NCBI GenBank assembly: GCA_009711825.1
Contig: VEMY01000003.1
Coordinates: forward strand, 1-64,000
Direction: 5' to 3'
Source of the DNA: Bacillota bacterium
Lineage (GTDB): Bacteria; Bacillota; Proteinivoracia; UBA4975; VEMY01
Length of the DNA stretch: 64,000 nucleotides
Shown here: in pieces, positions 17,250 through 38,609 of the stretch
Layout: each line of letters starts with the position of its first letter
Numbering within the stretch: the first letter of the stretch is position 1
Position numbers and translations under genes: made by a program
Notes under the pieces: generated by a model
Database searches by the model: none
The model's input: only the letters and a program-made list of their open reading frames with translations
What the model was told of the DNA's origin: nothing

Positions 17250-18446
17250 TTACTCCCGTTCTAAGGGCAGGCTCATGCAACGGGGGCCGCCCCGGCCCCG
17301 AACCAATTCCGAGCCCTCGATTTCGATGGTTTCGATGCCGGCAGACCGTAAAGTTTTGTTGGCCAAAGTATTGCGATTATAGACCACTACTTTACCTGGG
17401 GCCACCGCCAGCGTGTTGGTGGAATCGTTCCACTGCTCCCGGGAGGCCTGATGCAATGAGCTGCCATTGGTGTAAATTATCTGCACCGGCCGCTCCAGTG
17501 CCTGGGTAAGTCCGCCCTTGAGGTCACCCAGCTGTTCGGCATGGATGCGTCCGGACCGTCCCCGGGTCAGACGGTAAAGATATACCGAATCACGAATGCC
17601 GGGATAAAACAGGAACTTATCATAATCCAGCATTGTAAACACTGTGTCCAGATGCATATATGCCCGCTGGATAGGAATTTGCAGAACGAGGATCTGCTTG
17701 AGACGCTCCTGCTCGCCCAACAGCCGCAGGGCCAGAGTCTCTATCGCCTGTTCGGTGGTGCGCTGGCTCAGCCCCACAAGCAAAGTATCCTCCGAAAGCA
17801 CCAGCACGTCGCCCCCCTCCAGGCCCTTGGGCATCGGTTCGGTGTCGATGATTTCCACATCGGCAAACAGAGGATGGTGCTTGACCACTTTGCGCAGGAA
17901 CAGAGGCTCCCGTTTGCGGGCTTCGCTAAACATTGAACTCATCAGGATATCTTTGCCTACCATTACCCCATGGTCACGCATGAAATACATGCTGGGGAGC
18001 GGTGGCAGGTAGAAGGGAAAACCAACCGGTGTCAAATCGCTCAAGGACAAATGGTCCTTGAGGTCGCGGACCAAGCGCTTATGCAGACCGGCGGTCAATA
18101 ACTCGGTAGTTTTATTATCAGGCAAATCCAATAGGTATTCAAAGACTGCGCTCCTGGTATCGGGATCAGCGATATTGCTCAGCTCTAAATGTTCCCGGAT
18201 TAAATCTTCCTTAATTGGGCGCTCTGCCATGATGTCGGCAACAAGATCCTGGATGTAATAAACCCTGGTCCCGGCTTCGGTTAACGCCCGGGCGAAGGCA
18301 TCATGCTCCTCCCTGGCCCGTTCCAGCCAGGGGATCTCGTCAAACAACATATCTTCCATATATGCAGGCAGCAGATGTTCCAGTTCCATACCGGGACGGT
18401 AGAGTAGCACTTTTTTCAGGGCGCCGATTTCAGATGTGACATTCAT
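17250..18446 (-). CDS. arcA: arginine deiminase
   Basis: This 398-residue enzyme hydrolyses L-arginine to citrulline and ammonia. Signatures are FMRDHGVMVG and EGGDVLVL (guanidino and catalytic acidic residues), HLDTVFTMLD (catalytic His) and GRGGPRCMSLPL with the nucleophilic Cys near residue 390. Length is normal for bacterial ArcA. It is the last of the contiguous arcC-arcB-arcA block, the reverse of the common arcABC order. An intercistronic hairpin separates it from arcB. Confidence 0.97.
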   Translation of the reverse strand: MNVTSEIGALKKVLLYRPGMELEHLLPAYMEDMLFDEIPWLERAREEHDAFARALTEAGTRVYYIQDLVADIMAERPIKEDLIREHLELSNIADPDTRSAVFEYLLDLPDNKTTELLTAGLHKRLVRDLKDHLSLSDLTPVGFPFYLPPLPSMYFMRDHGVMVGKDILMSSMFSEARKREPLFLRKVVKHHPLFADVEIIDTEPMPKGLEGGDVLVLSEDTLLVGLSQRTTEQAIETLALRLLGEQERLKQILVLQIPIQRAYMHLDTVFTMLDYDKFLFYPGIRDSVYLYRLTRGRSGRIHAEQLGDLKGGLTQALERPVQIIYTNGSSLHQASREQWNDSTNTLAVAPGKVVVYNRNTLANKTLRSAGIETIEIEGSELVRGRGGPRCMSLPLERE

Positions 18447-18517: not shown

Positions 18518-19513
18518 TTAATTATTCCCTGCTGTTGCGACCATTACCGCCTTGATGGTATGCATGCGGTTTTCGGCCTGGTCAAAGACCTTGGAATACT
18601 TGCTCTCAAATACTTCATCAGTAACTTCCATTTCGGGGATACCGTGCTCTTGGAAAATCTGCTCGCCAACTGTAGTTTCCCGATTGTGGAATGCAGGCAG
18701 GCAATGGAGGAAAGTGACATCAGGAGCCGCCATTTTTATCATGTCCATATTGACCTGATAGGGCTTGAGCAGGGCGATACGCTCGGCGAATTGATCTTCT
18801 TCGCCCATGGAAACCCAGACATCAGTGTAAATGACATCGACACCAGCCACGCCTTCTTTTACATCGTCAGTAAGGGTGACCTGGGCGCCCGTTTCGGCAG
18901 CAATGTTCCGGGCCTGATCCACCAGTTCCGGCTCGGGGAACAGGCTGGATGGTGAAACGATCCGGAAATCCATGCCCATTTTGGCGGCGCCAATCATCAG
19001 CGAGTTGGCCATGTTATTGCGTCCATCGCCAACATAAGCAAACTTGATGCCCTTGAGCTTGCCCTTTTGCTCGATGATTGTCAGGAAGTCGGCGAGAATC
19101 TGGGTGGGGTGGTATTGGTCGGTGAGGCCATTCCACACCGGCACACCGGCGTGTTTGGCCAGCTCTTCCACAGTCTCGTGCTTGAAGCCACGGAACTGAA
19201 TGCCGTCAAACATGCGCCCCAGGACCCGGGCGGTGTCAGCAACAGATTCTTTTTTACCCAGCTGAATGTCATCTTTGCCCAAGTAATCGGCATGGGCGCC
19301 TTCATCAGAAGCGGCAACCACAAAGGCGCAACGGGTGCGGGTAGAGGGCTTTTCGAAGATTAGGGCGATATTTTTCCCCTCCAGCATCCGGGGTTTTACG
19401 CCCGAGTACTTAAGACGTTTGAGTTCAGCCGAGAGCTCCAGCAGATAATTGATTTCCTCGGGGCTGTAATCCAACAACTTGAGAAAATGTCTTCCTTTCA
19501 AGTTAAAAGCCAT
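18518..19513 (-). CDS. arcB: ornithine carbamoyltransferase (catabolic)
   Basis: This 331-residue enzyme splits citrulline with phosphate into ornithine and carbamoyl phosphate in this context. It has the carbamoyl-phosphate loop STRTRCAF and the ornithine loop HCLPAF, plus the DVWVSMGEE segment. I chose the ATG at 19513 after AAGGAGTGG; the in-frame start 60 bases upstream lies beyond that site. The product ornithine feeds the upstream ora/ort genes. Confidence 0.96.
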
Positions 19514-19538
19514 TTCTATCCACTCCTTATATACGTTT

Positions 19539-20468
19539 TTACCGGATAAACCGGGTACCGGACTTACCTTCAATTGCTTCTAGGGCATTGTTCAGGGAAG
19601 CGATAACAGCCATCTGGCCACCAGCTTCCAGGAACCGTAGGGCAGCTTCCACTTTCGGACCCATGCTGCCGGCCCGGAAATGGCCCTGTTCCTGATATTT
19701 GCGGGCTTCTGTTATCGTCAGTTCGCCCAGGAACTGCTGATCGGGCTTGCCCCAGTTGATTGCCACGGCTTCGACATCGGTGAGAATCAAGAGGATATCG
19801 GCCTCGACATCGGCGGCCAGGCGCTGACCGGCCAAATCCTTGTCAATTACTGCTTCGACACCGACTAGCTTTCCATTCTCATCTTCGATAACCGGAACGC
19901 CGCCGCCACCAGAAGCAATGACCAGAATGCCCTTTTCAATCAGGGCGAGGACTGCGTCCTTTTCGATGATAGCCTTGGGATTAGGAGAAGGCACAACCCG
20001 ACGCCAACCCCGCCCCGAGTCCTCGACAACAGCATAACCCTTTTCCGCCCGCAGTCGTTCCGCTTCTTCCTGGCTATAGAAGGGACCGATTGGCTTGGTG
20101 GGGTTCTTAAACGCGGGGTCATTGATGTCCACCAACACCTGGGTGACGACGGTGGCCACTGCTTGCTCTGGCAAAAGATTGCCCATGGACTGCTGAATCA
20201 TGTAGCCGATAAAGCCCTGGGTTTCGGCGCCACAGAAATCCAGCGGAAACGGTGGGACAACGTTCTTGGCCTCTTCGTTCTGCAGAAGGATATTCCCCAC
20301 CTGGGGACCATTGCCATGGGTGATAATGACCTCATACCCGTTGGTTATCATGTCCGCCAACTGTGCGCAGGTGTTGCGAACATTTTCCATCTGTATTGCC
20401 GCAGTTCCCGACTGTTTAGGCTGCAACATGGCATTGCCGCCCAGGGCAACCACAATCCGTTTGCTCAA
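19539..20468 (-). CDS. arcC: carbamate kinase
   Basis: This 309-residue amino-acid-kinase-fold enzyme makes ATP from carbamoyl phosphate and ADP, the energy-yielding step of the arginine deiminase pathway. Motifs are [10 protein letters not shown] at the N-terminus, [20 protein letters not shown] and [11 protein letters not shown]. The start is TTG at 20468, 8 bases after GGAG; the GTG at 20477 is too close to that site. Confidence 0.96.
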
Positions 20469-20486
20469 TCTAATCACTCCATTTCG

Positions 20487-21467
20487 TTAAAGATGTATGG
20501 GTATCCGGTGAGTACACCGGGGACATGAATCTTTATTTAGGTTGAATGCTATTCCCCGTCCTCTTACTATCACCGCTTCGCCGCATTCCGGACAATGAGT
20601 GCCGTCGATCTTGCCCGGGATATTGCCGACGTAGACATAACGCAAACGCTTCCGCGCCCGCGCTGCCAGGGCTCTGACCGTGGCAACAGAAGTAGGCGGT
20701 CGGCGCCAGTTACGCGCGGGGTAGTAGCGGGAAAGATGCAGAGGGATATCCGGGTCCAGCTCAGCAAGGAATTCGCTCAGCGCATCAATTTCTGCGGTGC
20801 CAGTGTTCTCATCGGGAACCAGCAGCGTGGTGACCTCGACATGGCAGCGGCCCACCGCCTCCCTGACGGTTTCGAGAACCGGGGCCAGACGGCCGCCGCA
20901 ATGCTCCTGATAAAATTCCGGCCGGAAGGATTTAATGTCGATGTTTACGGCGTCAATGTAAGCCACGAGCTGTCGCCAGGGCTCGGGATTGATGAAGCCG
21001 TTGGTAACCAGCACGGTCTTCAATCCCTGTTTTTGCGCCAAGCGGGCTGACTCCAGCACAAACTCATACCACATTAGGGGTTCGGTATAGGTCTAGGCCA
21101 AGCCGATATTGCCGCGGTCCCTGGTTTCTTTGGCAAGTTCGACCACTTCGGCTGGGGTGACCGCTTTTGTCGGCCAGGCGCCGCTTACCGCCTCATGGTT
21201 CTGGCAAAACCCACAGTCTAGATTGCATCCCGTGGAGCCCAGAGACAAAATCATTGACCCGGGGTGGAAATGGTAGAGGGGCTTTTTCTCCATCGGGTCT
21301 AAGGCAATGCCGCCGAGCTCGTCATAGTTTCGGGCATGGAGAGCTCCCTCTCGATTTTCCCGGACAGTACAGCGCCCCCGCCTTCCGGGCTGAATTCGGC
21401 AGTTATGCGGGCAAAGCGAGCAAATCACGCTGCCGTCCTTTCCGGGCTGCCACCAAAGCGCTTCCAT
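20487..21467 (-). pseudogene. amrS: AmmeMemoRadiSam radical SAM enzyme gene with in-frame amber codon
   Basis: The reading frame encodes a radical SAM protein of the AmmeMemoRadiSam system. Its N-part has SLCPHNC, NYDELGGIALDPMEKKPLYHF and the [4Fe-4S] motif GCNLDCGFCQNHE (CxxxCxxC). The C-part has LVTNGF, DIKSF and a terminal CPECGEA...CPRC cluster. A TAG at 21093-21095 interrupts the frame inside GLA-*-TYTEPLMWYE, where relatives have Tyr (AYTY-EP). One base change (TAT or TAC to TAG) would explain it. The ATG at 21467 follows the amrBA stop (TGAGATG). As written only a 124-residue fragment is made unless the stop is read through. Confidence 0.85.
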
Positions 21468-21468
21468 C

Positions 21469-22833
21469 TCAGCTATACCTTGTGACCGTAAATGTGAAGA
21501 GTTTGGCTTCATCGCGATGCTTTTCCGAGATGCCAGCTTTCTGGCAAGTTATCGCCAACTGTTCTTCCGCTGTATCGACTCCGGGGAGATCGGGCAGCAA
21601 GAGACCGCGTCGGCCTTGCCATTCCACCACAAGTCCCAGTTGTTTCGGGTCCAAGTCCGCGAAGGAGGCGGGAGTCAGCCCGCCCAGGACATCTATACTG
21701 ATGGACAACTCTGTCAGCTCCGCTTCGGTCACCGGTTCAAACCGGGGGTCATTGACAGCGGCGTCAACAGCGTTCGCAATGATTTCTGTTGCCAGATTGG
21801 GATGTCTGGGCTCGATGGTGCCAATACAACCCCTGAGCTGATCATCCAGCTTGAGACTGACAAAGGTCCCGGCCCGCTTATCCAGAGGCGGCGCCAAGTC
21901 AGCAGGAGCATCCAAGTATTCACCGCTGGTCAAATAATGGCTTATCGCCTCCCGGGCAAGCGCGGTGAGCCGACTCCTGTCCTGGGGGGTGTGGTCGGGG
22001 AACTCTGCCTGACCGTTGGGGCCCCGTACATCAAACCCGGCCACCAGATAGCCGACGCCAAAGGGTCCTTCATAGCTGAGCACCTGTGACTCAACCTGCC
22101 ACTGGGATAAGCTCCCCAAAAGGGTAATCAAGGGGCGCCAACCGCATTCGGCGGCCCGTTGACGCTCATCGGGGGGAATCGCCAGTACAGTTGCAAACTC
22201 TCCCCGTTCCAGGGCGCTGGTCACCAGTTTATCGAATTTGGCTCCTGCCGGATTGTACGGCGAAGGCGCGTCATCTGTCAAACAATGGGACATGTCGCCG
22301 CTGGCAATCAAGGCGAGTTTTTTGTCAGTGGCCATTGTCAATGCTCGGCCGATTTCCCAACATTGTCGGGGCGCCAAACCGCCGATGCGGACAACCGCAA
22401 TTTTTCCGCGCCAACCCGCCTGTTCCAGATACCAGAGGGGAATCATGGCGCCATGGTCCAGTTCGGTGCTTTGTCGGTGTTTACCTAATTGCCTGCCGTC
22501 CACGGCATACAGGGGTAAGTTAACGCGCTCAGCCAGCTGATCCAGCGCTTGCACATAAGCGCTATCATTTTCCCAGACCATGGACTCGGGCGAACCAAAG
22601 GCAGTGAACCCGCCTTTCAGCGGCGTCCAATCGGCGACGGTGTACGCATCAGAAAACACGGGACCGTGGGGGGTGATAATCACCACCAATTCCGGCTCCC
22701 GGGCCGCTATCCGGCCGGCCAACTCCCGACAAGCCTGGTCGGTGGACTGCACTTCCGGTTTTTGTTCATCGCCCACGCCTGTAATCAGCAGGGGCGGATG
22801 GGGAAACAGTCCGGCGTAGACCAGAGGGGACAA
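21469..22833 (-). CDS. AmmeMemoRadiSam fusion protein: AmrB (MEMO1-like) plus AmrA (AMMECR1)
   Basis: This 454-residue protein joins two parts. Residues 1 to about 270 are a LigB/MEMO1-like dioxygenase-fold domain with FPHPPLL, ITPHGPV, ELDHGAMIPL and ASGDMSHCL. The rest is an AMMECR1 domain with LRGCIGTIEP and NAVDAAVNDPRFEPVT. The two are usually fused or adjacent to the radical SAM gene amrS, as here. The biochemical role is unknown. The start is TTG at 22833 after GGGAGGTG. It lies between orr and arcC in the ornithine/arginine operon. Confidence 0.9.
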   Translation of the reverse strand: MSPLVYAGLFPHPPLLITGVGDEQKPEVQSTDQACRELAGRIAAREPELVVIITPHGPVFSDAYTVADWTPLKGGFTAFGSPESMVWENDSAYVQALDQLAERVNLPLYAVDGRQLGKHRQSTELDHGAMIPLWYLEQAGWRGKIAVVRIGGLAPRQCWEIGRALTMATDKKLALIASGDMSHCLTDDAPSPYNPAGAKFDKLVTSALERGEFATVLAIPPDERQRAAECGWRPLITLLGSLSQWQVESQVLSYEGPFGVGYLVAGFDVRGPNGQAEFPDHTPQDRSRLTALAREAISHYLTSGEYLDAPADLAPPLDKRAGTFVSLKLDDQLRGCIGTIEPRHPNLATEIIANAVDAAVNDPRFEPVTEAELTELSISIDVLGGLTPASFADLDPKQLGLVVEWQGRRGLLLPDLPGVDTAEEQLAITCQKAGISEKHRDEAKLFTFTVTRYS

Positions 22834-22849
22834 ATTAACACCTCCCAAT

Positions 22850-23914
22850 TTAGTGACGGTATTCTTTGTGCACGAACTGGGATGTCATTGCTGCAAGCAA
22901 CGCGCCGTACCCCGGGCTGAAGGTTAGTATATCTCCAACCGCCAGCGTACTTGCATAATTGGTCACATCCAGAAGCAGGTGGTCGCTGCTGGCACCAATT
23001 ATTTCAATGCCATCAGGCGCCTCCAAACTGTCGATGGCAACATCTTGCCGCCCCAGGGCGACAATTGCCCGCTTGTGGATGCCTTTGTTTACAAATTCCG
23101 GCGTACCGCCAAAGGCATCCTGACCGATCTCTCCAATGGGCACCGATGGTTTTTCACGAAGTTCGATGACTTCAGCCTGCAACTGGAAACAATCGAGGTG
23201 GGCGCCGGGAACAGGCGCCCGGGCCACCGTCTCGCGGCCCAGCACAATGGACTCGCCAAGACGCAATTGGGTAACCGGCGGCAGCTTACCTGCCAATAGC
23301 AGGGGCAGGCTGCTGGAGTTACCGCCGGAGATTACTGGCAACGGCCGTCCGTAAACAGCCTGGGCGCGCTCATTGAGACTCAAGAGCTGTCCCAGGTTTT
23401 GCTGGGTGGGGATTACGCCACCGTAACAAGTGAGGTTTGTGCCCAGTCCCAGCAGCTGGATATGCTCAAGTCCGGCGATTGCTTTAACGGTTGTTTCCAA
23501 CTGATCCGGCCAGATACCTTCCCGCAAGTCACCCAAATCAACCATAAGGATGATTTTATGGATGGTGCTCTGGTTGGCAGCGGCCCGGTTCAGGGCTTCG
23601 ATGGTGGCCAGCTCCGAGTTGAGACTGACCTGAAAATATTTAACTACGTCTTCGACCTGGCTGGCCATGGGCAGACGCAATAAAAGCATTGGCGCATTAA
23701 TTCCTGCCTCTCGCAGACGACGGGCGTTCTCCACCCGGGATTCACCAAGCATTTCAATACCACCGGCAATAAATGCCCGGGCCACTTCCGGATCGCCACA
23801 GGTAACCTTGGTTACTCCCACCGGCTCGATGCCGTTTTCTCGGCACAATTTATTCAGCAAGGCGGCATTTTCCTGTATTTTAGCCAGATCAATAATCAAC
23901 TTGGGGTATTTCAC
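22850..23914 (-). CDS. orr: ornithine racemase (PLP-dependent, alanine-racemase-like fold)
   Basis: This 354-residue protein has the N-terminal TIM-barrel of alanine racemases; the PLP Lys is in GVTKVTCGDPEVA near residue 36. The GGNSSSLPLL segment and the absence of a standard alanine racemase C-domain point to the Orr/YhfX-type branch. It converts L- to D-ornithine, the substrate of OraSE. Its GTG overlaps the stop of the preceding MutL-like gene. Confidence 0.92.
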   Translation of the reverse strand: MKYPKLIIDLAKIQENAALLNKLCRENGIEPVGVTKVTCGDPEVARAFIAGGIEMLGESRVENARRLREAGINAPMLLLRLPMASQVEDVVKYFQVSLNSELATIEALNRAAANQSTIHKIILMVDLGDLREGIWPDQLETTVKAIAGLEHIQLLGLGTNLTCYGGVIPTQQNLGQLLSLNERAQAVYGRPLPVISGGNSSSLPLLLAGKLPPVTQLRLGESIVLGRETVARAPVPGAHLDCFQLQAEVIELREKPSVPIGEIGQDAFGGTPEFVNKGIHKRAIVALGRQDVAIDSLEAPDGIEIIGASSDHLLLDVTNYASTLAVGDILTFSPGYGALLAAMTSQFVHKEYRH

Positions 23915-25278
23915 TCTGCCTCTCCTTTCCCGTCAATGGCCAGCGATTTCATGAGCAGCTGCACTGCCGCCCGGGGATGATTCTTTGCCAACACCCCAAC
24001 GGTGGCCATTATATAGTCCCGGTCCAATAGCACCCGGGTCTCTGCATCCGGTTTTAGCAACTGAGGGTCCCGGATTTTCAGGCCCTCGGCCAGTAATTGT
24101 TTGCCCCGGGGCAAGCGGGTGAGGGCGCCGCCGGTGCCAATCACGTATTTGACCTTGGTCAAATCCTTACCCCGGACTATTCGGTGGCGGCCACCGGGTC
24201 CGTAGATATAACTAATCCGGCCGGCATGGCGTTCTAAAGCCGCCTTTACCGCCCCCCCGGTCAGGGCCTCGGCCACGGCAATCTGTTCTGGGCTGGTGGG
24301 AATCGGCACAACGGCCGCTTCCGGGTCCGCGACACCGGTCAGCGCGTGCAAATTCTCCTGACCGAGCAAGTTTATCAGGTTGGAAGCGTTGACATAGACC
24401 CCCAAATCCCCTTCCACCGTCCGCTTGGCCAGCGGCTCAGGACTGAGGGCAATTGCGTTATATTCATCAGAGCCGGGGGTCACCGAATGCAGATCAGTGG
24501 TGGCGCCGCCAACGTCAAAGACCATCAGGTCGCCCAGCTCCCGGTATAGGGTGATGGCAGCGTTGAGCACCGCACCGGGCACCGGTTGGATGGAGCCCTG
24601 AACAAGCTCCCGGATTTGCCCCATTCCCGGGGCATGGACGATATGCTTCTCAAATGCAGCCTGAATCGCCTGACGGGTTGGTTCCACGTTTAACTCGTCT
24701 ATCCTGGGGTAAACATTCTCCACCAGCACAAGGTCAAATTCACTGCCGCCAAATATTTTGCGGATATCCTCGGTGATGGCGACATTGCCGGCATAGATCA
24801 AGGGAATCGGCAGATTCAGGGCCGCAAGCTTGCGGGCATTATCGAGAATGATCTCCCTTTCGCCATAGTCGACACCGCCAGCCAGCAAGATAATATTTGG
24901 CATAATCGTCCGGATCTGCTCCAGGTCGCTTTCGGACAAGGGACCCGCTGTTACCTGGTGCAGGACAGCGCCAGCCCCCAGGGCGGCCTCCCGGGCTGCC
25001 CGGGCCGTCATGTCATAGACCAGGCCGTGGACGGTCATTTTCAGACCGCCGGCAGCGCTGCTGCAGGCATAGATTGTGTCCCAGGATAACTCCTCGGCGC
25101 CGAGATTATTCTGGAGAGCGGCCAGGGCCTGTTTCAGGCCCTGGCGCACATCTCCCTGTTCCACTGTTGTCGGTCCCTGACCCTGCCCAACAAAACAGGG
25201 GTCTGTTTCCAGATTGGCGAAACCGCTGACCACCGTAGTGGTGCTACCGATTTCTGCCACGATTACATCGAGTTTCAC
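23911..25278 (-). CDS. MutL/GlmL-like protein of the ornithine aminomutase operon
   Basis: This 455-residue protein has an ASKHA-type ATPase layout, with DVIVAEIGSTTTVV at the N-terminus, LLAGGVDYGE and DVGGATTDLHSV. It belongs to the MutL/GlmL family found beside B12-dependent aminomutases, thought to protect or reactivate them. GTG at 25278 follows GGAAGTTGATCCC and lies 13 bases after the oraE stop; the longer frame would start inside oraE. Confidence 0.88.
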   Translation of the reverse strand: MKLDVIVAEIGSTTTVVSGFANLETDPCFVGQGQGPTTVEQGDVRQGLKQALAALQNNLGAEELSWDTIYACSSAAGGLKMTVHGLVYDMTARAAREAALGAGAVLHQVTAGPLSESDLEQIRTIMPNIILLAGGVDYGEREIILDNARKLAALNLPIPLIYAGNVAITEDIRKIFGGSEFDLVLVENVYPRIDELNVEPTRQAIQAAFEKHIVHAPGMGQIRELVQGSIQPVPGAVLNAAITLYRELGDLMVFDVGGATTDLHSVTPGSDEYNAIALSPEPLAKRTVEGDLGVYVNASNLINLLGQENLHALTGVADPEAAVVPIPTSPEQIAVAEALTGGAVKAALERHAGRISYIYGPGGRHRIVRGKDLTKVKYVIGTGGALTRLPRGKQLLAEGLKIRDPQLLKPDAETRVLLDRDYIMATVGVLAKNHPRAAVQLLMKSLAIDGKGEAE

Positions 25279-25291
25279 GGGATCAACTTCC

Positions 25292-27478
25292 TTACTCGCC
25301 GCGGCGTTTTTTGACCAGGAAGCTTGCGACCATGTGTCCATTGCTGCCCCGGCCAAAACCGGCGTCCATGCCCTCTTCCTTGGCGATATCATCAGTTACC
25401 TGGGTTCCGCCGGCCACCAGGATGATTTTATCCCGGATTCCTTTTTCCTTACAGAGGTCGTTGAGCCGGCGCATGTTGATGCGGTGAATGTCGGCATGAG
25501 TAATGATTGTGCTAATGAGAATCGCGTCGGCTGCTGTTTCAATCGCCGCATCCACTACCTTCTCGATGGAAACGGAAGTGCCAAGATAGTGGCACTGCAC
25601 GCCGAAACCTTCGATGCCGCCGTGCTTGATGTCGATAATCTCCCGCATACCGACCGAGTGCTCATCCTCGCCGACGGTGGCGCCGACAATGGTCATCGGT
25701 TTTTCCTTGATATCAGCGCGAATTTCATCTTCGCTCAAGAGCGGCACTTCCGGCGGAATGTCCAGGGTGGAGGGATCGATGTCGATATCGACCTTGCCCT
25801 TCAGCTCCAGAAAGGTGCCTTCCACAGGGTGCATCGCCTGCTTGTTGATAACCTCGGCGTCCTTGATGCCCATCTTCTCCGCCAGGGCAAGGGCAGTATA
25901 CTCTGCCACCCGCAGACTGGTGGGGAAGAATAGATTCATGCTGACCACGCCGTCGGCATACCATTCCACCTCGGGGCGCAGCAGGCCCTGCTCCCGATGC
26001 TCGGCCTTGGCCGCCATCCGCTGATTAGCATTATCCTCTTCATCAAGTTCATCGATATAGACAATCTTGTCGGGGTTGCACAGGGTGCAGCCGTCGATGA
26101 GATCACAGGGCTTCTGGCCGGCGCGGATGTTGTTGCGGCCATAGTGGTGACAGACCGGCGCCAGGTAATCTTCATCCCGGGGAGTGATTGTATCAACGCC
26201 AATGCCGCCGTCCATATGGCGGACGATGCCGTCGGCATTGCGCTGGGGATAATAACCGGAGTCCACGAAGAAACCCTGCTCAACGGCTTTGAAGTAGCCG
26301 CCAACTTCCAGCATTTCCTCCAGGAAGAGGATTGCCCGCTCTTTGAGCTCCCGCACCCGCTCCCGGAGCACGCCATCTTTTTTGAGCTCCACCAAGTCTT
26401 GAAGACCGTCGAGGCCAATCAGGGCCTGCTTGGCAGTGTTGACAGCGGCAACCGAGTTATAATGCCAGGGCACGTTGCGGCCCTCATCGGGGGTAATGGT
26501 GCTCTGGATGTCAACGCTGGTCAGCCGGGAGATCATCAGGTTCAAAGCATGGGTTACGGTGACTTCCCGGGTGCAGGACTCCATGTACTTGGTGTTCATC
26601 TGGGCCCGCATCTTGTATTCGCCGAACAATTCCCGCAAAGCCACGGCGTACGGCAGATCCAGATACATGTTGGGCGCCGGTGTGGCTGTAGGGGGAACCG
26701 TGGATAAACTGATATTTTCTTTCTTCATGCCAACCTTGACCGAGTAGGCGGCATTGATGCCGTGCTGAACCATCAGCTCGGGCATAACCTTCCAGGCTTC
26801 CCGGGCGGTTGCGTTGGCGTTATGGGCGCCGTCGATCTGCAGCATATCTACCGAAGCCATCAACTTCTTGGCAACGGCAGCATCGACAAATGAACGCAGC
26901 ATATTGACGTTGCGGTAGAGCACGTTGTACTGGGGATCCTGATGGGCGCCGTTTACCCCTTCTTCGGCGAAAAGCACAGCAATATCCGGGCCAGCAACGC
27001 CACTGACATATGAGTGCAAGTTGATGGGGCGACCGACTTCATCTTCGATGATGTCCAAAGCCTTGCGGCTGGCGCGGATTTGCTTGCGGGTGATGGGCAC
27101 GCCGCCCACCCCTTCGGGTGTACCTTCAATCAGGCCATCATAATGACTCTGGCCGGCAGTGCGAATGACCATGATATGGTCGGCGCCATGCCAGGCCGCC
27201 ATCCGCATCCGACGGATATCGTCTTCAAAGCGGCCGGAGGCGATTTCGGAAGTGATAACGCATTCCGGTTGCGGGTCGATATTGCCAAAATATTTGGCAG
27301 CCGGTAGCGGCTGGCTGTTGGTCAGTGATTCCGAGACCTGCTTATATTTAAACGGTCCGATCTGGGTGTCTTCCGGCAGGCGCTTGCGCCAGGTCCAGCC
27401 TTTGCGGCGCGGACGATAGCTTTCCAGGTCCTGCAGGATTGCTTCTACGTTTAGCTTCACATTCGCTTGCATGTCCAT
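25292..27478 (-). CDS. oraE: D-ornithine 4,5-aminomutase, large (B12/PLP) subunit
   Basis: This 728-residue enzyme moves the terminal amino group of D-ornithine to C4, giving 2,4-diaminopentanoate. An N-terminal TIM-barrel is followed by a C-terminal Rossmann B12 domain with CHYLGTS, where His at about residue 630 is the expected cobalt ligand. A Lys ten residues later is a candidate for the PLP aldimine. The domain ends in GFGRGSNGH. OraS is the immediate upstream gene, separated by two bases. Confidence 0.97.
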   Translation of the reverse strand: MDMQANVKLNVEAILQDLESYRPRRKGWTWRKRLPEDTQIGPFKYKQVSESLTNSQPLPAAKYFGNIDPQPECVITSEIASGRFEDDIRRMRMAAWHGADHIMVIRTAGQSHYDGLIEGTPEGVGGVPITRKQIRASRKALDIIEDEVGRPINLHSYVSGVAGPDIAVLFAEEGVNGAHQDPQYNVLYRNVNMLRSFVDAAVAKKLMASVDMLQIDGAHNANATAREAWKVMPELMVQHGINAAYSVKVGMKKENISLSTVPPTATPAPNMYLDLPYAVALRELFGEYKMRAQMNTKYMESCTREVTVTHALNLMISRLTSVDIQSTITPDEGRNVPWHYNSVAAVNTAKQALIGLDGLQDLVELKKDGVLRERVRELKERAILFLEEMLEVGGYFKAVEQGFFVDSGYYPQRNADGIVRHMDGGIGVDTITPRDEDYLAPVCHHYGRNNIRAGQKPCDLIDGCTLCNPDKIVYIDELDEEDNANQRMAAKAEHREQGLLRPEVEWYADGVVSMNLFFPTSLRVAEYTALALAEKMGIKDAEVINKQAMHPVEGTFLELKGKVDIDIDPSTLDIPPEVPLLSEDEIRADIKEKPMTIVGATVGEDEHSVGMREIIDIKHGGIEGFGVQCHYLGTSVSIEKVVDAAIETAADAILISTIITHADIHRINMRRLNDLCKEKGIRDKIILVAGGTQVTDDIAKEEGMDAGFGRGSNGHMVASFLVKKRRGE

Positions 27479-27480
27479 GC

Positions 27481-27843
27481 TTAATTACCTCCCGCCACTT
27501 GTTCTTCCACCTGGTCCCAGAGGCGACCTTCAGCCAGTTCCAAGCCGGCCTCCCGGTAGGGTTTGCCGCTCAGCTCCGCGGCTTTCAGGACCATATGTCC
27601 GGCGCCTTTGCCCAAGAGGCCGCGCTGCTCACATTTTTCCACGATGTTCTTGGCCTCGAGACTGCTGAAACCCATCCGCAAGAGGACAGAGCGCTCAATT
27701 GCCGGAGATGTATGGGTTTTGGCCAGTTCGGTCATGGGAGTAACAACCTGGTCGAGAAGCTCCCAAAATCGTTGATTAAGCTGTTCGTCGCTGAGGTCGG
27801 CCAAATGTTTGCGTCGCTCTTGATAATCGTCTTTTCTTTCCAT
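27481..27843 (-). CDS. oraS: D-ornithine 4,5-aminomutase, small subunit
   Basis: This 120-residue protein matches OraS in size and in the sequence LLRMGFSSLEAKNIVEKCEQRGLLGKGAG. It pairs with OraE to form the heterotetrameric aminomutase. It is spaced by two bases from both neighbours, consistent with tight co-translation. Confidence 0.95.
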   Translation of the reverse strand: MERKDDYQERRKHLADLSDEQLNQRFWELLDQVVTPMTELAKTHTSPAIERSVLLRMGFSSLEAKNIVEKCEQRGLLGKGAGHMVLKAAELSGKPYREAGLELAEGRLWDQVEEQVAGGN

Positions 27844-27845
27844 CT

Positions 27846-29258
27846 CTACCTGCCTCCTTGTGCTCTCAGTTGTTCCTGCACCCAGTCAATACTAGCCCGA
27901 CAGTCCTCGGCCAAGAACTTAATGTCCTCGGCGCAGAGGTCGATTGCCTCAAATTGCTTGAGGGCGTTCTTAATGTAAGACTTGCGCAGGTCATCCAAAT
28001 CAGTTTCCACTGCCTTAATTTGCCGGGGATGTTCGGGAAGAACAATCGTCTCACCCGGCTTGTTTTCCGCCGGGTCTCCGACAGAGATCTTGATGCCGTT
28101 GGCCCGGGCAAAGCTCAGCTGTGCGCTGACATGTTTACCGGCGCCAGTGTATTCAGTCTCCTGGACGACAAGGACCTTATCCTGATCCATTTCCGCCGCC
28201 AGGGCAATTGCTGCCGCCAATGAAGTGTTGCCCGCCGGGCCCCGTTCCAGGCCTTCCAGTTGGGCGAGGAGTTCGGTAACGTAAAAGGCCTCGCCCTGGG
28301 TTATGGTGACATAGCGGTCCATATAGCGTAGCGGCCGGGCAGCGTTCTTGGGCACATCGGCCCGGTCAGGCCAGGTGGCGAAGGGAACGCCAAAACCGGT
28401 ATGGCCGGTGGTAAAGGATTTGCGGTTGAAATCCTGGTCGCTGGCCATATGCAGCCCCGAAAGGTCAACACTGGCAGCGACGATTTCGACATCCACACAA
28501 CCGGCCTTGATCAGGCCGCGGGCGGTACCGGTGAGGTTGCCACCACCGGCATGGGTGACGACCACAGTATCCGGCTTAAGGCCATGTTGCTCCCGCAGTT
28601 GTTGTTCAATCTCCCAGCCCAGGGTCTCCACCCCGGCAATCGCGTACGGAGTATATAAAGAAGCGTTGAAATAGCCGGTATCCTCCAGGGTGCGTAGGAA
28701 AACATAGAATAGCTCCGGCCCCACCGAGAGTTGCAGCACTTCGGCGCCATAGGCTTCACATGCCCGGCCTTTCTCGGCAATCTCGGGCTGGAAAACGCCG
28801 CGGCTGTCAAAGGCCTCCTGGACGATAATCGACCGCAGATTCTTCATCGCCGCCTGGGAAGCAACAGCGGCGCCATAGTTGCCACTGGTGGCGGCCACTA
28901 CGCCTTTGTAACCATGTTTGGCGGCATGATAGACGGCCAGGGCAGCGCGCCGGGCCTTAAAGCTGCCAGACGGATTTGCGGCTTCGTCCTTGAGGAATAT
29001 CCGGGCGCCTTTACCGGCGGGCGCAAATTTGCGCACCAGCGCTGTAATGTTCTTCAGTTCTAGAAGTGGCGTGTTTCCGACACCGGCATCGCGCTGAATT
29101 GACACTACCTCGTCGAGACTGTAACCAGCTTCCTTCATCATGCCCTCATAGTCGAAGGCCAGTTTGCCCATGGTATAGCGGCTGTAGTCCATACCGACGG
29201 CCTGCTTCATAATGTCATTGCGGCGGTCCATTACTGCCTTGTATGAGTTGTCAGTCAT
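27846..29258 (-). CDS. ortB: 2-amino-4-ketopentanoate thiolase, beta (PLP) subunit
   Basis: This 470-residue fold type II PLP enzyme has the Schiff-base Lys in NPSGSFKARRAAL, the phosphate-binding loop SGNYGAAVAS, and HAGGGNLTGTA. With OrtA it cleaves 2-amino-4-ketopentanoate with CoA to acetyl-CoA and alanine, the final step of oxidative ornithine breakdown. It overlaps ortA by eight bases. Confidence 0.95.
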   Translation of the reverse strand: MTDNSYKAVMDRRNDIMKQAVGMDYSRYTMGKLAFDYEGMMKEAGYSLDEVVSIQRDAGVGNTPLLELKNITALVRKFAPAGKGARIFLKDEAANPSGSFKARRAALAVYHAAKHGYKGVVAATSGNYGAAVASQAAMKNLRSIIVQEAFDSRGVFQPEIAEKGRACEAYGAEVLQLSVGPELFYVFLRTLEDTGYFNASLYTPYAIAGVETLGWEIEQQLREQHGLKPDTVVVTHAGGGNLTGTARGLIKAGCVDVEIVAASVDLSGLHMASDQDFNRKSFTTGHTGFGVPFATWPDRADVPKNAARPLRYMDRYVTITQGEAFYVTELLAQLEGLERGPAGNTSLAAAIALAAEMDQDKVLVVQETEYTGAGKHVSAQLSFARANGIKISVGDPAENKPGETIVLPEHPRQIKAVETDLDDLRKSYIKNALKQFEAIDLCAEDIKFLAEDCRASIDWVQEQLRAQGGR

Positions 29259-29565
29259 TGTCTCCGCCTCCCATCAGCTGGCGCACCTTGACGCCGATCT
29301 CAAGAAGTTCCGGCACAGCTTCGCCGAAGTCATGGGTATAGCGGGGCATGACTGCAACTAGTTCGCCCCTCAGTACACGACCGCTGAGGGTGCGGATTTC
29401 CGCCTCGCTCCCGGGACTGGCTTGACTAACCAAAAAACCTTTGGCCAGCATCACCAAGGGTGTGTCGGCGGTATCGGCGGGCACCTGGGGCGCCCGCTCG
29501 CCGGCAGCGAGGACCTGGTGACGTATTTGCACCCAGGTTCCTGCAGCTACTGTATCCAAAGTCAA
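29251..29565 (-). CDS. ortA: 2-amino-4-ketopentanoate thiolase, alpha subunit
   Basis: This 104-residue protein fits OrtA by size and by its WVQIRHQVLAAGERAPQVP and GELVAVMPRYTHDFG segments. It forms the thiolase with OrtB. It lies six bases after ord. Confidence 0.94.
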   Translation of the reverse strand: MTLDTVAAGTWVQIRHQVLAAGERAPQVPADTADTPLVMLAKGFLVSQASPGSEAEIRTLSGRVLRGELVAVMPRYTHDFGEAVPELLEIGVKVRQLMGGGDND

Positions 29566-29571: not shown

Positions 29572-30600
29572 CTAGCGCTTAATCAGTTGACGAATATCGC
29601 CGAGAATTGCCGGTGGCAGAGGCAGGTCGATCATTGAGACCAGACCGGCAGGCGCATTAATCACGTTGGGAATTGAGTTCACGGCGACGGCGATTGTACC
29701 AATGCCGCCAGGGATTTCCGGCTTGATGGCCAGGTTGACATCGGGCTCACCCTTGATCCAGATGTAATCGCCGGTGTCAACGCCTTCGGCCTCGGGACGC
29801 ACCTGCTGGGGATGCTCCATGGTGATAAGCGTCTTGCCATCTTTGATGCCATAGGCAATATGTTTGCAGCCGGCAACCATACCCGGAGCCACTTTCACAT
29901 GCGGGGTCTCCCGGTGAGTTTTGGAGATAATCGGCTCTTTAGTTTGCTTGATTTCATCTAATTCCCAACCCAGTGCCTTGGCGACCATTGCCATGGACTC
30001 GGGGAAGCCGACGTGGCCAACCACGGTGCCTGCTTCGACACCGGCCTTGAATTCTTCGGGGCTGATGCCGACGCCCTGGGTCCGCATAACGGTGGGGCCA
30101 AAGGGTGAAAGGTCGTTGATCCGCGCAGCCTTGATTTCGGTTACGTTATAGCAAACGCCGGTCATGGCCACAATCAGCAGGTCGAGGACAAAACCGGGGT
30201 TGATACCGGTGCCCAGCACTGAGACATTGTTTTCCCGGGCCAGTTTGTCAATTTTCTCAGCCAGTTCTGGCTGCTGTTGCTGAGGATAGGCCATTTCTTC
30301 GGCGATACAAATGACATTCTTTTTCGCTTCGATAGCCTGAACCAGTTGGGGATATACTTCCTCTGTGAAGGAGCCGGTAGCGACGATAACCAGGTCGGCG
30401 TCGGCTTTGAGCGCTTCGGCAGCGTTGTTCACAACCTTGGCATTGCTCGCCACACCAAACAGCTCGTTCAGGGTTTTACCCTGCTTGTTGGGATCGACAT
30501 CAATCGCGGCCACACTTTCGGCGCCGGTTTTGCTGCCCAGCAGCTTAACCATACCGCCACCCATGGCGCCAAGACCCCAGTGAATAACTTTAACTGTCAT
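29572..30600 (-). CDS. ord: 2,4-diaminopentanoate dehydrogenase
   Basis: This 342-residue NAD(P)-dependent enzyme oxidises 2,4-diaminopentanoate to 2-amino-4-ketopentanoate with release of ammonia. The Rossmann motif is VIHWGLGAMGGGM, and GINPGFVLDLLIVAMTG is typical of Ord and the related DapB-like fold. I chose ATG 30600 after AAGGGGTG. It is the first gene of the cluster, with a sigma-54 promoter 46-62 bases upstream. Confidence 0.96.
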   Translation of the reverse strand: MTVKVIHWGLGAMGGGMVKLLGSKTGAESVAAIDVDPNKQGKTLNELFGVASNAKVVNNAAEALKADADLVIVATGSFTEEVYPQLVQAIEAKKNVICIAEEMAYPQQQQPELAEKIDKLARENNVSVLGTGINPGFVLDLLIVAMTGVCYNVTEIKAARINDLSPFGPTVMRTQGVGISPEEFKAGVEAGTVVGHVGFPESMAMVAKALGWELDEIKQTKEPIISKTHRETPHVKVAPGMVAGCKHIAYGIKDGKTLITMEHPQQVRPEAEGVDTGDYIWIKGEPDVNLAIKPEIPGGIGTIAVAVNSIPNVINAPAGLVSMIDLPLPPAILGDIRQLIKR

Positions 30601-30645: not shown

Positions 30646-30662
30646 ATGCAAAAACCGTACCA
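30646..30662 (-). promoter_or_regulatory. sigma-54 (-24/-12) promoter of the ornithine operon
   Basis: The minus strand reads TGGTACGGTTTTTGCAT. It matches the TGGCACG-N4-TTGCA consensus, with GG and GC exactly ten bases apart. Transcription would begin near 30636, about 36 bases before the ord ATG. A sigma-54 activator gene lies 6 kb away. Confidence 0.85.
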
Positions 30663-30707
30663 TCGGCAGGTAAAGCCTTTTATTACGGGAAGGGACAACA
30701 CTGCCAA

Positions 30708-30745
30708 CTTTTTTGCACCAATCAACCGCCACCTTTTTTGCACCA
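30708..30745 (-). promoter_or_regulatory. candidate activator sites upstream of the ord promoter
   Basis: Two identical 13-mers CTTTTTTGCACCA stand at 30708-30720 and 30733-30745 (plus-strand reading), 25 bases apart, 46-83 bases upstream of the -24 box. A direct repeat at this distance is a reasonable enhancer-type binding site for the sigma-54 activator. The same TTTTTTGCACCA also occurs on the minus strand near 17153-17164. Confidence 0.5.
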
Positions 30746-30852: not shown

Positions 30853-30886
30853 TTGCGGAAAACGTACAATACTTATATAATTGTAC
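30853..30886 (+). promoter_or_regulatory. promoter with overlapping palindromic operator
   Basis: TTGCGG (30853-30858) and TATAAT (30876-30881) are 17 bases apart. The perfect inverted repeat GTACAAT (30864-30870) / ATTGTAC (30880-30886) spans the -10 box. This is the expected layout for autorepression by the Phd domain of the encoded protein. Confidence 0.7.
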
Positions 30887-30900
30887 CGGAGGTGATTTCT

Positions 30901-31668
30901 TTGAAACCCCGCAAGTACAAAGAAGGTACGGTAGTAACGGCCACTGAGTTGAAGCAGAATTTCGGCAAATACCTGGATTTTGTCGAGGCGCAAAATGATG
31001 TGGTAATCAGCAAAAACGGACATAAGGTTGCCCGGCTCACCCCTTATGTAACGGATATCGAGCAATACTTCACCATCCGGGAAAAGGCGTTGGATTACCA
31101 GTACGGCGGCAAGAAGGTGTCGTATCAAGAATTCATGGAAATCTACGAGAAGAGCACGCTGCGGATGGAGTTTATTAACGGCGAGATTTATCTCCTGGGC
31201 TCACCCAGCATCGGTCACCAGGAGATTCTGGGTCGTCTGTATTTGCAGTTCCATGAATCCTTTAAGGGCAACAAATGCCGGGTGTTTTTTGCTCCCTTCG
31301 ACGTACATTTTCACAAGATAGACTTTAAGGAACCGGATGTAATGCAGCCGGATATCCTGGTCGCCTGCGACCTGGAAGGCAATATTAGCGAAAAAGACCG
31401 GTATATGGGGACCCCGACGTTGGTGGTTGAAATTCTCTCCGACAGCACCCGCACCAAGGATATGGTCGACAAGCTCAGCACCTATATGCTCTCCGGTGTT
31501 GAGGAATACTGGCTATTTGACCCCAAGCAGGAGAGCGTGATGATTTACTCCTTTGCCAAGCACGAGATTGACAGCTGCAAGGCATATGAACGGGGCGATA
31601 CTGCTCAGTCGAAAGTGTTTGCTGGGTTGCAGGTCGACGTTGAAAGCCTGTTCACCAACCTGCTCTAG
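30901..31668 (+). CDS. Phd/YefM antitoxin domain fused to a Uma2-family nuclease
   Basis: This 255-residue protein begins with a Phd/YefM-like DNA-binding domain (TVVTATELKQNFGKYLDFVEAQ and VVISKNGHKVARL, residues 1 to about 60). It continues into a Uma2 (DUF820) PD-(D/E)XK nuclease domain with RMEFINGEIYLL, EPDVMQPDILVACD and PTLVVEILSDSTRTKD. TTG 30901 sits 8 bases after GGAGG. Fusing antitoxin and nuclease in one chain suggests a self-controlled toxin or defence factor, but activity is unproven. An operator palindrome overlaps the promoter, and inverted GAACCGTCC repeats bracket the gene. Confidence 0.85.
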   Translation: MKPRKYKEGTVVTATELKQNFGKYLDFVEAQNDVVISKNGHKVARLTPYVTDIEQYFTIREKALDYQYGGKKVSYQEFMEIYEKSTLRMEFINGEIYLLGSPSIGHQEILGRLYLQFHESFKGNKCRVFFAPFDVHFHKIDFKEPDVMQPDILVACDLEGNISEKDRYMGTPTLVVEILSDSTRTKDMVDKLSTYMLSGVEEYWLFDPKQESVMIYSFAKHEIDSCKAYERGDTAQSKVFAGLQVDVESLFTNLL

Positions 31669-31696: not shown

Positions 31697-31735
31697 ATAA
31701 CAGAAAAAGCGCCTCGGGGCGCTTTTTCTGTTATG
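31696..31735. terminator. bidirectional terminator between the Uma2 gene and the catalase gene
   Basis: An 18-bp perfect inverted repeat (31696-31713 / 31718-31735) centred on GCGCCTCGGGGCGC has A- and T-rich outer arms serving both converging genes. It includes the catalase stop codon. Confidence 0.9.
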
Positions 31736-33869
31736 CTGGAGTCATTTCGGCCTGGTGCTGACGGGCCCAGTGCCGGTGCTGGCCAATTGCCTTGATAAAC
31801 TCCTGGGCCAAGCCGCCGAGGTCCTTAGTGTCGCGGACGGTGACAACACCCAGCTCAGTGACGACATCGCCGGACGATTCCGGTCCGGCCATGGCCACAT
31901 CCCGAATCCCCGACACGGCCAGCAGATCGCAGCCTTCGTTGGCGGCGGCTACCGCCTTGTAATGCTTGAATGCTTCGTTGACAAAGCCCAGGGCATCGCC
32001 CTGAAGGAGCAGGCTTTCGACGCACTTTTTGCCTCCGGCCACATACACAGCATCGTACATCACCGAAGATGTGGTCCACCAGTTGTGGCCTGCCTCCAAC
32101 TCCTGTCCGTCTTCACTGGAGAGCATACCCTGGTGCTTGGAGACAAGCTCCACAACTACGTCGGCGGCCCGCAACTGGTCCATGACCTGGGAAACCTCTT
32201 GGTAATTGAAGCCGTTGTCGGCGAGGATTGCCACCCGCCGGGTGGCTGCAGACATCGGTGTATTCAGCTGGCTGACAGCCGGCGAGTTGTCGCTAACGCC
32301 GGTGCCCCCGGGCTGGGATGGTGGCTTGACGCCAATCCCCTGGGCAATCTGCTTGGCCAGTTCGCCATCGACGTTGTTGAACAGATGGACAATCTGCTCC
32401 CGGATACATTTATCCTTCACCTTGCCTACCTCAAAATGGAAGGCATCGATGATATGCTTTTTCTCCGGCTCGCTCATACTGTTCCAGAATAAAGTTGCCT
32501 GACTGAAGTGGTCCATAAAGCTTTGGCTGCGGGCGCGGATTTTCTTACCATCCACCTTCTCCGCGTAATGGACGTATCCGCCCTGGGCCTCCGGCGCCGG
32601 TGTCGGCGCGTTCTGCTGCAGGCTGTTGGGTGCGTAACTTACCTTCCCCCGATCAATGGTCATCCGGTGGTAGCCGTCCCGCTGGTTGTTATGGACCGGA
32701 GCCAACGGCCTGTTGATGGGAATCTCGTGGAAGTTGGGTCCGCCCAAACGGATGAGCTGGGTATCCATGTACGAGAAGAGGCGGCCCTGAAGCAGGGGAT
32801 CGTTGGTGAAGTCAATTCCCGGCACCACATTGGCCGGGTGGAAAGCAACTTGCTCGGTCTCGGCGAAGAAATTGTCGGTGTTCCGATTCAGGACCATTTT
32901 GCCGATTTTCTGTACCGGCACAATCTCCTCGGGCCAGAACTTGGTGGCGTCGAGAATGTCGAAGTCGAAGTCAAACTCCTGACTTTCATCAATCATCTGC
33001 ACGCCCAGTTCATATTCGGGATACTGGCCCATCTCAATGGCCTCCCAGAGATCGCGACGGTTGTAGTCAGGGTCCTTGCCCGCCAGCTTTTGGGCCTCAT
33101 CCCAGACCAATGAGTGAACGCCTAACATAGGTTTCCAGTGGAATTTAACAAACCTTCCTTCGCCCTGCTCATTGACAAAGCGGAAGGTATTGACGCCGAA
33201 CCCCTCCATCATCCGATAGCTGCGGGGAATCGCCCGGTCCGAGAGTAGCCACATGATCATCGGGGTAAGCTCCGGGGTGTTGGCGACAAAGTCCCAAAAG
33301 GTGTCATGGGCCGCCGAGGCCTGGGGCATCTCATTATGGGGCTCCGGCTTGATGGCATGGACGATGTCGGGGAATTTGATTGCATCGTGGATGAAAAATA
33401 TCGGAATGTTATTGGCCACCAAGTCGTAATTGCCCTCTTCGGTATAGAACTTGGTGGCAAACCCCCGGACGTCCCGGACGGTATCTGCTGAGCCCCGAGA
33501 CCCAACCACGGTGGAGAAGCGCACAAACACCGGGGTCTTCTTAGCCGGATCCTGGAGAAAACCAGCTTTAGTGTAGGTCGCCATCGACTCATAGGGCTGA
33601 AAATAACCATGGGCGCCAAAGCCCCGGGCGTGGACAACCCGCTCGGGAATCCGCTCGTGATCAAAATGGGTCATCTTCTCCCGGAAGTGGAAGTCCTCCA
33701 TCAATGTCGGGCCGCGCTCGCCTACCTTCAGCGAATCGTCAGTATGGGACACCCGGAGGCCCTGATTGGTGGTGAGCTTCTCGCCAGCATGGTCGGCGCG
33801 AAACTGGGTGAGCTGTTCTATCTTGGTCTTATCGGTGATTTCCGTCTGTTCCTTTTGGACCTTATCCAT
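31731..33869 (-). CDS. katE: large-subunit (clade 2, HPII-like) haem catalase with C-terminal DJ-1/PfpI-like domain
   Basis: This 712-residue protein decomposes hydrogen peroxide. His80 ([11 protein letters not shown]) and Asn153 or Asn154 (VANNIPIFF) form the active site, and Tyr367 (RLFSYMDTQ) is the haem ligand. The segment from about residue 540 ([16 protein letters not shown]) is the flavodoxin-like DJ-1/PfpI domain of large catalases. It is unusual in a presumed strict anaerobe and suggests real oxygen exposure. It stands alone. The start follows AAAGGGTG. Confidence 0.96.
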
Positions 33870-34071
33870 CGTTGCACCCTTTCCAAATTATTCTCCCCTT
33901 AGTGTGCAACCTCTGGCAAGTTCTTATGCCCGTGATTAAGACAGTTTTGCGGACTGGCTCACGCAGAATAAAATTCCTCAGAGTAAACTTCACCGTCAAG
34001 CATACCGCAAGACAGAACATATGATTGTTTTACAATAGCAGCTGGACAACTGCTTCAGGTATTGTTAGCCC

Positions 34072-36132: not shown

Positions 36133-36159
36133 ATCGACCCCTCCCTTTTAGGTAAATTG

Positions 36160-36195
36160 CTAGAGCATCCCCGCCAAAGGGCGGGGATGCTCTAG
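36160..36195 (-). other. intercistronic hairpin between peptide and transporter genes
   Basis: A 16-bp perfect stem (36160-36175 / 36180-36195) with a 4-base loop has no T-run after it on the minus strand. It may act as a partial terminator or RNA-stability element giving more peptide than transporter. Confidence 0.65.
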
Positions 36196-36974: not shown

Positions 36975-38609
36975 TTACAAGCCATGTCGCTTCAGTTTAT
37001 ACTGCAGGGCCTGGCGGGTGACGCCCAACATCCGAGCCGCCCGGGTGATATTGCCGTTATAGCGGTCCATAGCCCGGCGAATCAGGCGGCGCTCCACTAC
37101 GTCCAGGGCCTCGGGGAGGGTGAATTCCTCCAAATCCGAACCGTCGTCCCGGGAGCGCTGACCCAAGAGGTGTTGGGGAAGGTGCGGGACATCAATCACC
37201 TGTTCGTCGCCCAGGACGTTCATCGCCCCTTCAATGATATGCTCTAACTCGCGGACGTTGCCTGGCCAGGCGTAGGTGCGGAACAATTCCGCCACCGCCG
37301 GCGATACTCCCTCTACAGAAAGCCCGAATTCTCGGTTATATTTGTCAACAAAGTGCCTGGTCAACAAGTCAATATCTTCCCGACGGCGTACCAGTGGCGG
37401 TAAAGTGATATTAACCACCGCCAGTCGGTAGTATAGGTCCTGACGCAGAGTGCCCTGGGCAATCGCCGCCTGGGGTTGGACATTGGTTGTAGCAATTACG
37501 CGCACATCCACGGGCACCTCTTTCATTCCCCCGACTCGGCGCACGCGGTGTTCCTGTAAAACCCTCAGAATCTTGGCCTGAAGATCAATGCCCATGGAAT
37601 TTATTTCGTCTAGAAGCAAGGTGCCGCCGCTGGCCTGCTCCAGCAGACCGGGCCTATCCACGGCGCCAGTAAAGCTTCCTTTGACGGTGCCAAAGAGAAT
37701 CCCCTCCAGCAGTGAGCCAGGGAGGGCGGCGCAGTTTTGGGCAATGAACGGGCCCTGGCGGGCGCTGGCATTGTGAATGCTCTGGGCCACCAATTCCTTA
37801 CCGGTGCCGGTTTCGCCGTAAACTAATACCGGCGAGACGGTGCGGGCTGCTCGGCGGGCCAACTCCAATTGTTGCTGAAGAGCAGGGCTTTCGCCGATTA
37901 TATCTTCAAACGTAAAGCCCTGGGGCTGCTTGCGGGCACCTTGTTTCTTAGTGTAAAGCTGTTGCTGCAAATCGATGACCTTGCGGGCCAGATCTTCCAT
38001 CCGGGTAACATCCTTGGCCACCTCCAACACCCCGATAAACCGGGAACGATGCCAGAGGGGAATTGTGCTGTTCACGGAAGTAATTCTCTGTCCCTTATGG
38101 TTATGGTAGGTCTGCACTTGATCATATATCGGTTCCCGGGTGCGGAGCACCCGAAGGATTGTACTGGTCTCAGGGGTCAGGGATGGAAACATCGTCAGGA
38201 CATCGGTGTTAATGACCTGGGAATAGTCCATGCCTTCCATTTTTGCCAGCGTCGGGTTGTAGAAAACAGTCCGGCCATGCTCATTCACCACGTGTATACC
38301 CTCGTCAATGGCGTTGAGGATTGCCGTCATTTCACTGGACGAGCGGTCGCTCTCGGTAATCATTAGCAGTGTATAACCAGCCCAACCGTCGGCGGTGATG
38401 GTCAGAGTCCGCCCCTCCAGGTCGATGTCTTGGGGCAAGTTGCGGCTCCAACCATCCAGAGCAGCGGGCAGAGGATTACCTAACTCCAACTTCAGCCCTT
38501 CCAAAAGCTCATGGGCGCCGGTACTGGCGTACACTAAATTGCCCTGTCCATCCAGGACCAACAGAGCAGGAAATCCGGTTTTATCTATCAGACTGGCTAA
38601 ATCAAGCAT
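36975..38609 (-). CDS. sigma-54-dependent transcriptional activator, RocR-like
   Basis: This 544-residue protein has a PAS-type sensor region (about residues 90-205), an AAA+ domain (about 240-465) and a Fis-type HTH at the C-terminus (NGNITRAARMLGVTRQALQYKL). Walker A is GETGTGKE, the sigma-54 contact loop is GSFTGA and Walker B is GGTLLLDE. It should activate -24/-12 promoters using ATP. The only good such promoter I see is ahead of ord, so arginine or ornithine catabolism is the likely target. ATG 38609 follows AGGGGGTG. Confidence 0.93.
   Translation of the reverse strand: MLDLASLIDKTGFPALLVLDGQGNLVYASTGAHELLEGLKLELGNPLPAALDGWSRNLPQDIDLEGRTLTITADGWAGYTLLMITESDRSSSEMTAILNAIDEGIHVVNEHGRTVFYNPTLAKMEGMDYSQVINTDVLTMFPSLTPETSTILRVLRTREPIYDQVQTYHNHKGQRITSVNSTIPLWHRSRFIGVLEVAKDVTRMEDLARKVIDLQQQLYTKKQGARKQPQGFTFEDIIGESPALQQQLELARRAARTVSPVLVYGETGTGKELVAQSIHNASARQGPFIAQNCAALPGSLLEGILFGTVKGSFTGAVDRPGLLEQASGGTLLLDEINSMGIDLQAKILRVLQEHRVRRVGGMKEVPVDVRVIATTNVQPQAAIAQGTLRQDLYYRLAVVNITLPPLVRRREDIDLLTRHFVDKYNREFGLSVEGVSPAVAELFRTYAWPGNVRELEHIIEGAMNVLGDEQVIDVPHLPQHLLGQRSRDDGSDLEEFTLPEALDVVERRLIRRAMDRYNGNITRAARMLGVTRQALQYKLKRHGL

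Follow-up and report, generated by a model that had tools for sequence, protein, structure and literature searches.

The window, by which we mean the whole stretch of 64,000 nucleotides analysed here, carries on its minus strand a row of genes that runs with short gaps from ord through arcA, down to about position 17250. Upstream of ord lie a candidate promoter, two candidate enhancer sites and, further away, an activator gene (Table 1). The start of ord is probably the ATG at 30600, as read from the sequence, with AAAAGGGGTG just upstream; a start at 30621 is disfavoured because it would lie only about 15 nt after the predicted +1. The true start of or-4 is probably further in than the annotated frame. 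We infer that a single transcript spans the ord genes, the AmmeMemoRadiSam genes and arcCBA. The preliminary description spoke of an ornithine operon, and the ornithine genes are indeed downstream of the promoter, but the predicted transcript also takes in the AmmeMemoRadiSam genes and arcCBA. Arginine deiminase would feed ornithine into the ord route.

Table 1. Features of the ord region, listed in the direction of the minus strand (window coordinates).
Feature	Position	Strand	Basis or remark
ordR, PAS - AAA+ - Fis-HTH enhancer-binding protein	36975..38609	-	domain matches; start at 38609 follows AGGGGGTG
Distal candidate OrdR enhancer site (UAS), GCAAAAAAGGTGGC	30728..30741	-	one mismatch to GCAA-N6-TTGC
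Promoter-proximal candidate OrdR enhancer site (UAS), GCAAAAAAGTTGGC	30703..30716	-	one mismatch to GCAA-N6-TTGC
Sigma-54 (-24/-12) promoter, TGGTACG-N4-TTGCA	30647..30662	-	exact consensus match; kept across ord loci
ord, 2,4-diaminopentanoate dehydrogenase	29572..30600	-	NF040740, 514 bits against a cut-off of 400
ortA	29251..29565	-	NF040739, above cut-off
ortB	27846..29258	-	NF040741, above cut-off
oraS	27481..27843	-	PF16552 (OAM_alpha)
oraE	25292..27478	-	NF040743, above cut-off
or-4, GlmL-related ornithine degradation protein	23911..25392	-	NF040744, above cut-off
orr, ornithine racemase	22850..23914	-	NF040742, 450.7 bits, just below the cut-off of 480
AmmeMemoRadiSam system protein A domain (C-terminal part)	21469..22848	-	TIGR04335, above cut-off, residues 293-458
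AmmeMemoRadiSam radical SAM gene, in-frame TAG	20487..21512	-	TAG at GLA*TYTEP
arcC, carbamate kinase	19539..20477	-	TIGR00746, above cut-off
arcB, ornithine carbamoyltransferase	18518..19573	-	TIGR00658, above cut-off
arcA, arginine deiminase	17250..18446	-	NF002381, above cut-off

A TAG codon interrupts the radical SAM gene in frame, at GLA*TYTEP in its translation. Pyrrolysine at this position was considered and rejected, as no pyrrolysyl-tRNA synthetase (PylS) scores above cut-off in the genome; the TAG is a broken gene or an assembly error. A structured element (about 95 nt) follows arcA as two imperfect copies in tandem, at 17050-17240 on the minus strand. It reads TGCCTCAGTCA..ATGAGG-CA-CTTAG-CGACCG-GGTACGG and includes a hairpin rich in G+C; the fold z-scores are -2.9 and -3.6. 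The element has no Rfam match at E <= 1, and a search of 100 relatives returned background-level matches only. A partial third copy is found at 8284-8265, near a glmS ribozyme (7921-8078, minus strand, 86 bits, gathering score 37).

On the minus strand the promoter halves are TGGTACG (30662-30656) and TTGCA (30651-30647), separated by the 4-nt spacer GTTT. The sequence, TGGTACGGTTTTTGCA at 30662-30647, places the GG and GC dinucleotides with exactly 10 nt between them, so that direct reading upholds the earlier description of the element as having exact -24/-12 spacing. Nowhere else does the window match TGGYAYRNNNNTTGCW exactly. Counting C30648 as -12, transcription is predicted to start at about 30636, in agreement with the position proposed in the preliminary description. 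The genome to which the window belongs (3.09 Mb in 77 contigs, 99.8% complete) contains 12 exact -24/-12 matches, compared with 4 for a reversed control pattern, and 6 of the 12 have an activator gene no more than about 1 kb away. The promoter had been said to be untenable if the genome had no rpoN; one rpoN is present (G000:C21, PF04552, E = 1.5e-62).

The same type of promoter recurs upstream of ord in other genomes. For 91 ord loci, drawn from relatives and from named genomes, the 220 bp preceding ord were scanned and the highest-scoring sigma-54 site was taken, using consensus weights set by hand and a threshold of at least 21.5. A promoter was found at 45/48 loci that have an OrdR-like activator gene nearby, but at only 10/43 loci without such a gene in the examined stretch. 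The corresponding Fisher p value, 1.5e-12, is optimistic because the loci are related and the weights were hand-set, yet the contrast is large. Of the 10 exceptions, several (L063, L097 and L123 among them) are at contig ends or narrowly miss the activator threshold.

The activator gene of the window encodes a protein in which PF00158, PF02954 and PAS_4 all score above their cut-offs. It has the Walker A motif GETGTGKE and the loop GSFTGA, in which S replaces the A of GAFTGA, a substitution common to many OrdR orthologues. These findings bear out the PAS-AAA+-Fis activator read at this place earlier, and the protein combines what is expected of the NtrC/NifA type: an AAA+ domain with Walker A, a GAFTGA-type loop, a Fis-type HTH and a sensory domain. 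Its best matches are ord-linked activators, with 65-68% identity within the order, whereas its nearest paralogue in its own genome is 48% identical. In a quick tree it groups with the ord-linked activators of its order with support 100. An OrdR orthologue is found upstream of ord in most relatives, often directly, and this linkage extends across Bacillota. Within the order of the window, ordR lies 0.5-6.4 kb from ord, with different genes between; the distance is about 6.4 kb in the window and 2.5-4.6 kb in several relatives. By sequence comparison with the ord-linked activators of relatives, and by linkage, the product is an OrdR orthologue. Membership in PrdR was examined with NF041552, and the score of 393.9 bits is below the cut-off of 795.

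The interval between ordR and ord (31731-36578) holds genes for a large HPII-like catalase, whose tail is of the DJ-1/PfpI type, and for an ABC transporter that includes an FtsX domain, as well as a small frame that matched no family. The genes at the corresponding place in relatives differ from these. Divergent from ord, on the plus strand at 30853-31668, one frame combines Phd/YefM antitoxin and Uma2 putative endonuclease domains.

Upstream of the promoter, identical 13-mers TGGTGCAAAAAAG occur at 30733-30745 and 30708-30720, 25 bp apart. No other 13-mer in the window recurs exactly within 60 bp, and shuffles yield 0.03 such repeats. The two repeats noted earlier are therefore both present, but the functional unit appears to be a different one, namely two imperfect palindromes. 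A search for palindromic dyads in the DNA preceding 55 ord promoters of the sigma-54 type ranked the 14-bp palindrome GCAA-N6-TTGC first by a wide margin (35 loci compared with 0.6 expected). Exact copies were found at 35/55 of these promoters, compared with 0.5 expected and a maximum of 3 in 100 shuffle rounds, but at only 1/33 of the ord loci without a sigma-54-type promoter. If one mismatch is allowed, 27/55 promoters have at least two sites (0.5 expected). The site pairs are mostly 20-25 bp apart, with a second class at 54-76 bp. The motif also describes a locus that was left out when it was derived: in Acetoanaerobium noterae, ordR is followed by two exact sites at a distance of 22 bp from each other, then by TTGGCATTGATATTGCT and finally by the ord operon. 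Thus, the sequence comparison confirms that the conserved enhancer unit is the palindrome GCAA-N6-TTGC, often in two copies. One A. noterae record that carries the whole ord cluster (L176, NZ_CP154629.1) is included in the PLSDB plasmid listing; its size, 2.63 Mb, suggests that it is a chromosome.

Because the conserved unit is GCAA-N6-TTGC, the 13-mer amounts to the left half-site plus flank. We rejected it as the functional unit on this ground, and its one-mismatch copies in the genome are no more frequent than those of the control (8 vs 8). A 13-mer-like copy at 17153-17165 was also set aside; it belongs to the hairpin region that follows arcA, and no -24/-12 promoter adjoins it. Measured from the first G of the -24 GG, the centres of the two window sites are 48 bp (proximal) and 73 bp (distal) upstream. 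In same-order relatives the proximal sites are at -48/-49 (L063, L064, L066, L068 and L069) and the distal sites at -71/-72. Each window site has its one mismatch in the right half, TGGC for TTGC, and this right half is common to several of the same relatives (L064, L066 and L069). The preliminary description had suggested looking for other repeat pairs near -24/-12 promoters. Among the consensus sigma-54 promoters of the 3.09-Mb genome, a pair of OrdR-type sites was found only at ord; the remaining 11 have none. A genome-wide search for further OrdR targets by site pairs gave only the ord site and a weak hit (C34:6138), which is not beside a consensus sigma-54 promoter.

Taken by itself, the promoter-like sequence could be a chance match in an A-rich spacer, as could the repeats, and one-mismatch matches to the promoter pattern in the window are at chance level. 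This reading is contradicted by the conservation of both position and sequence over dozens of loci, and we give it almost no credence. The operon might instead be read from a vegetative sigma-70 promoter, with the repeats bound by a repressor such as ArgR/AhrC. A sigma-70-like match (9/12 positions) does overlap the promoter region, at 30652-30624. However, different families retain the GG and GC of the -24/-12 element, these go together with the activator gene, and the repeats in turn go together with the sigma-54 promoter, which makes a sigma-70 promoter with a repressor very improbable.

A different enhancer-binding protein could also activate the operon. The genome encodes eleven full sigma-54 activators, besides two weak AAA+ matches, and the nearest paralogue of OrdR (G000:C1:68500) also has the GSFTGA loop. 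This paralogue, however, adjoins a consensus promoter of its own (C1:69394) that has no GCAA-N6-TTGC pair, and it is OrdR that is linked to ord across Bacillota and that fits the conserved sites. We consider activation by another such protein quite unlikely, if slightly less so than the sigma-70 reading. In our judgement, the sequence evidence makes it very probable that an ornithine/arginine fermentation operon dependent on sigma-54 and controlled by OrdR is regulated from this region.

The location of the sites in other genomes suggests a further possibility. Where ordR is directly before ord, the sites begin 1-51 nt from the ordR stop in nearly all loci with sites, and they are usually within a predicted terminator hairpin that is followed by T-rich sequence. 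A site was wholly inside the hairpin at 17/19 loci with a terminator-like hairpin, compared with 5.8 expected from random placement; this comparison is partly circular, as palindromic sites themselves help to make hairpins, and the 19-locus table omitted some loci with weak hairpins. Stems that reach beyond the sites (L117, L122 and L144), together with T-runs, are more independent signs of a terminator. Folding of the window's own sites revealed no terminator hairpin, and we rejected a terminator function for them. We tentatively propose, as a close call on which we are slightly doubtful, that the sites form the stem of the ordR intrinsic terminator where ordR abuts ord, and that in the lineage of the window, where ordR and ord became parted, the sites turned into a plain direct repeat. 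If this is true, one palindrome would serve both as a DNA-level signal, the enhancer of the target, and as an RNA-level signal, the end of the ordR transcript. A literature search found no report of an ordR terminator/enhancer overlap, which is weak evidence of novelty.

Based on these results, we propose a model for the control of the operon. In the NtrC/NifA family, a closed complex of sigma-54 polymerase is opened by an enhancer-bound activator that uses ATP. At the ord promoter, sigma-54 RNA polymerase would wait as a closed complex. The PAS domain of OrdR may sense a ligand, probably ornithine or a related amino acid by analogy with RocR. Since arginine, ornithine or citrulline elicits the response of RocR (PMC9245794), a similar ligand for OrdR is a reasonable guess. 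OrdR would bind the two palindromic sites, assemble into an ATPase ring, loop the short intervening DNA and spend ATP to open the promoter. Transcription from about 30636 would then read ord-ortAB-oraSE-or4-orr and probably continue through the AmmeMemoRadiSam genes and arcCBA. The RocR-like enhancer circuit of the preliminary description is supported, as to mechanism, by the presence of rpoN, the conserved promoter and sites and the linked activator; its more precise name is OrdR.

Circuits of this type are already known for the ord operon, and the window is a new example (PMC6615313, PMC7438776). Nie et al. (2019) predicted that sigma-54 and OrdR control ord-ortBA-oraSEF-orr-nhaC in five species, and they called the OrdR motif distinct (PMC6615313); GCAA-N6-TTGC may be the same motif. 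In C. difficile, a SigL-type promoter was mapped upstream of ord and associated with OrdR (PMC7438776). The window shares with the Clostridiales OrdR regulon (PMC6615313; C. difficile CD0441/CD0442, PMC7438776) the ord-ort-ora-orr operon, the sigma-54 promoter and OrdR, as well as more than one upstream site, which is typical of such activators. The window differs in that it comes from another Bacillota lineage, its ordR is parted from ord by unrelated genes, its operon continues into arcCBA and not nhaC, and its sites form a direct repeat in which the right half is TGGC.

The RocR/SigL system of the Bacillus roc operons (PMC4813224, PMC9245794) likewise combines a PAS-type NtrC/NifA activator, a sigma-54 promoter and a two-part enhancer in arginine/ornithine catabolism. 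RocR targets the arginase-route genes rocABC and rocDEF, whereas the target in the window is the ord pathway; the likeness is one of mechanism. PrdR, the proline reductase activator, is the best-scoring named NCBIfam model for the window activator (NF041552, 394 bits), but its sites are described as TGT/ACA repeats (PMC6615313), in contrast to GCAA-N6-TTGC at ord. In sum, the paired GCAA-N6-TTGC palindrome offers an explicit, testable enhancer motif for finding OrdR targets, and the window adds an uncultured Bacillota lineage to the range of a sigma-54 amino-acid fermentation circuit described from the Clostridiales, C. difficile among them.
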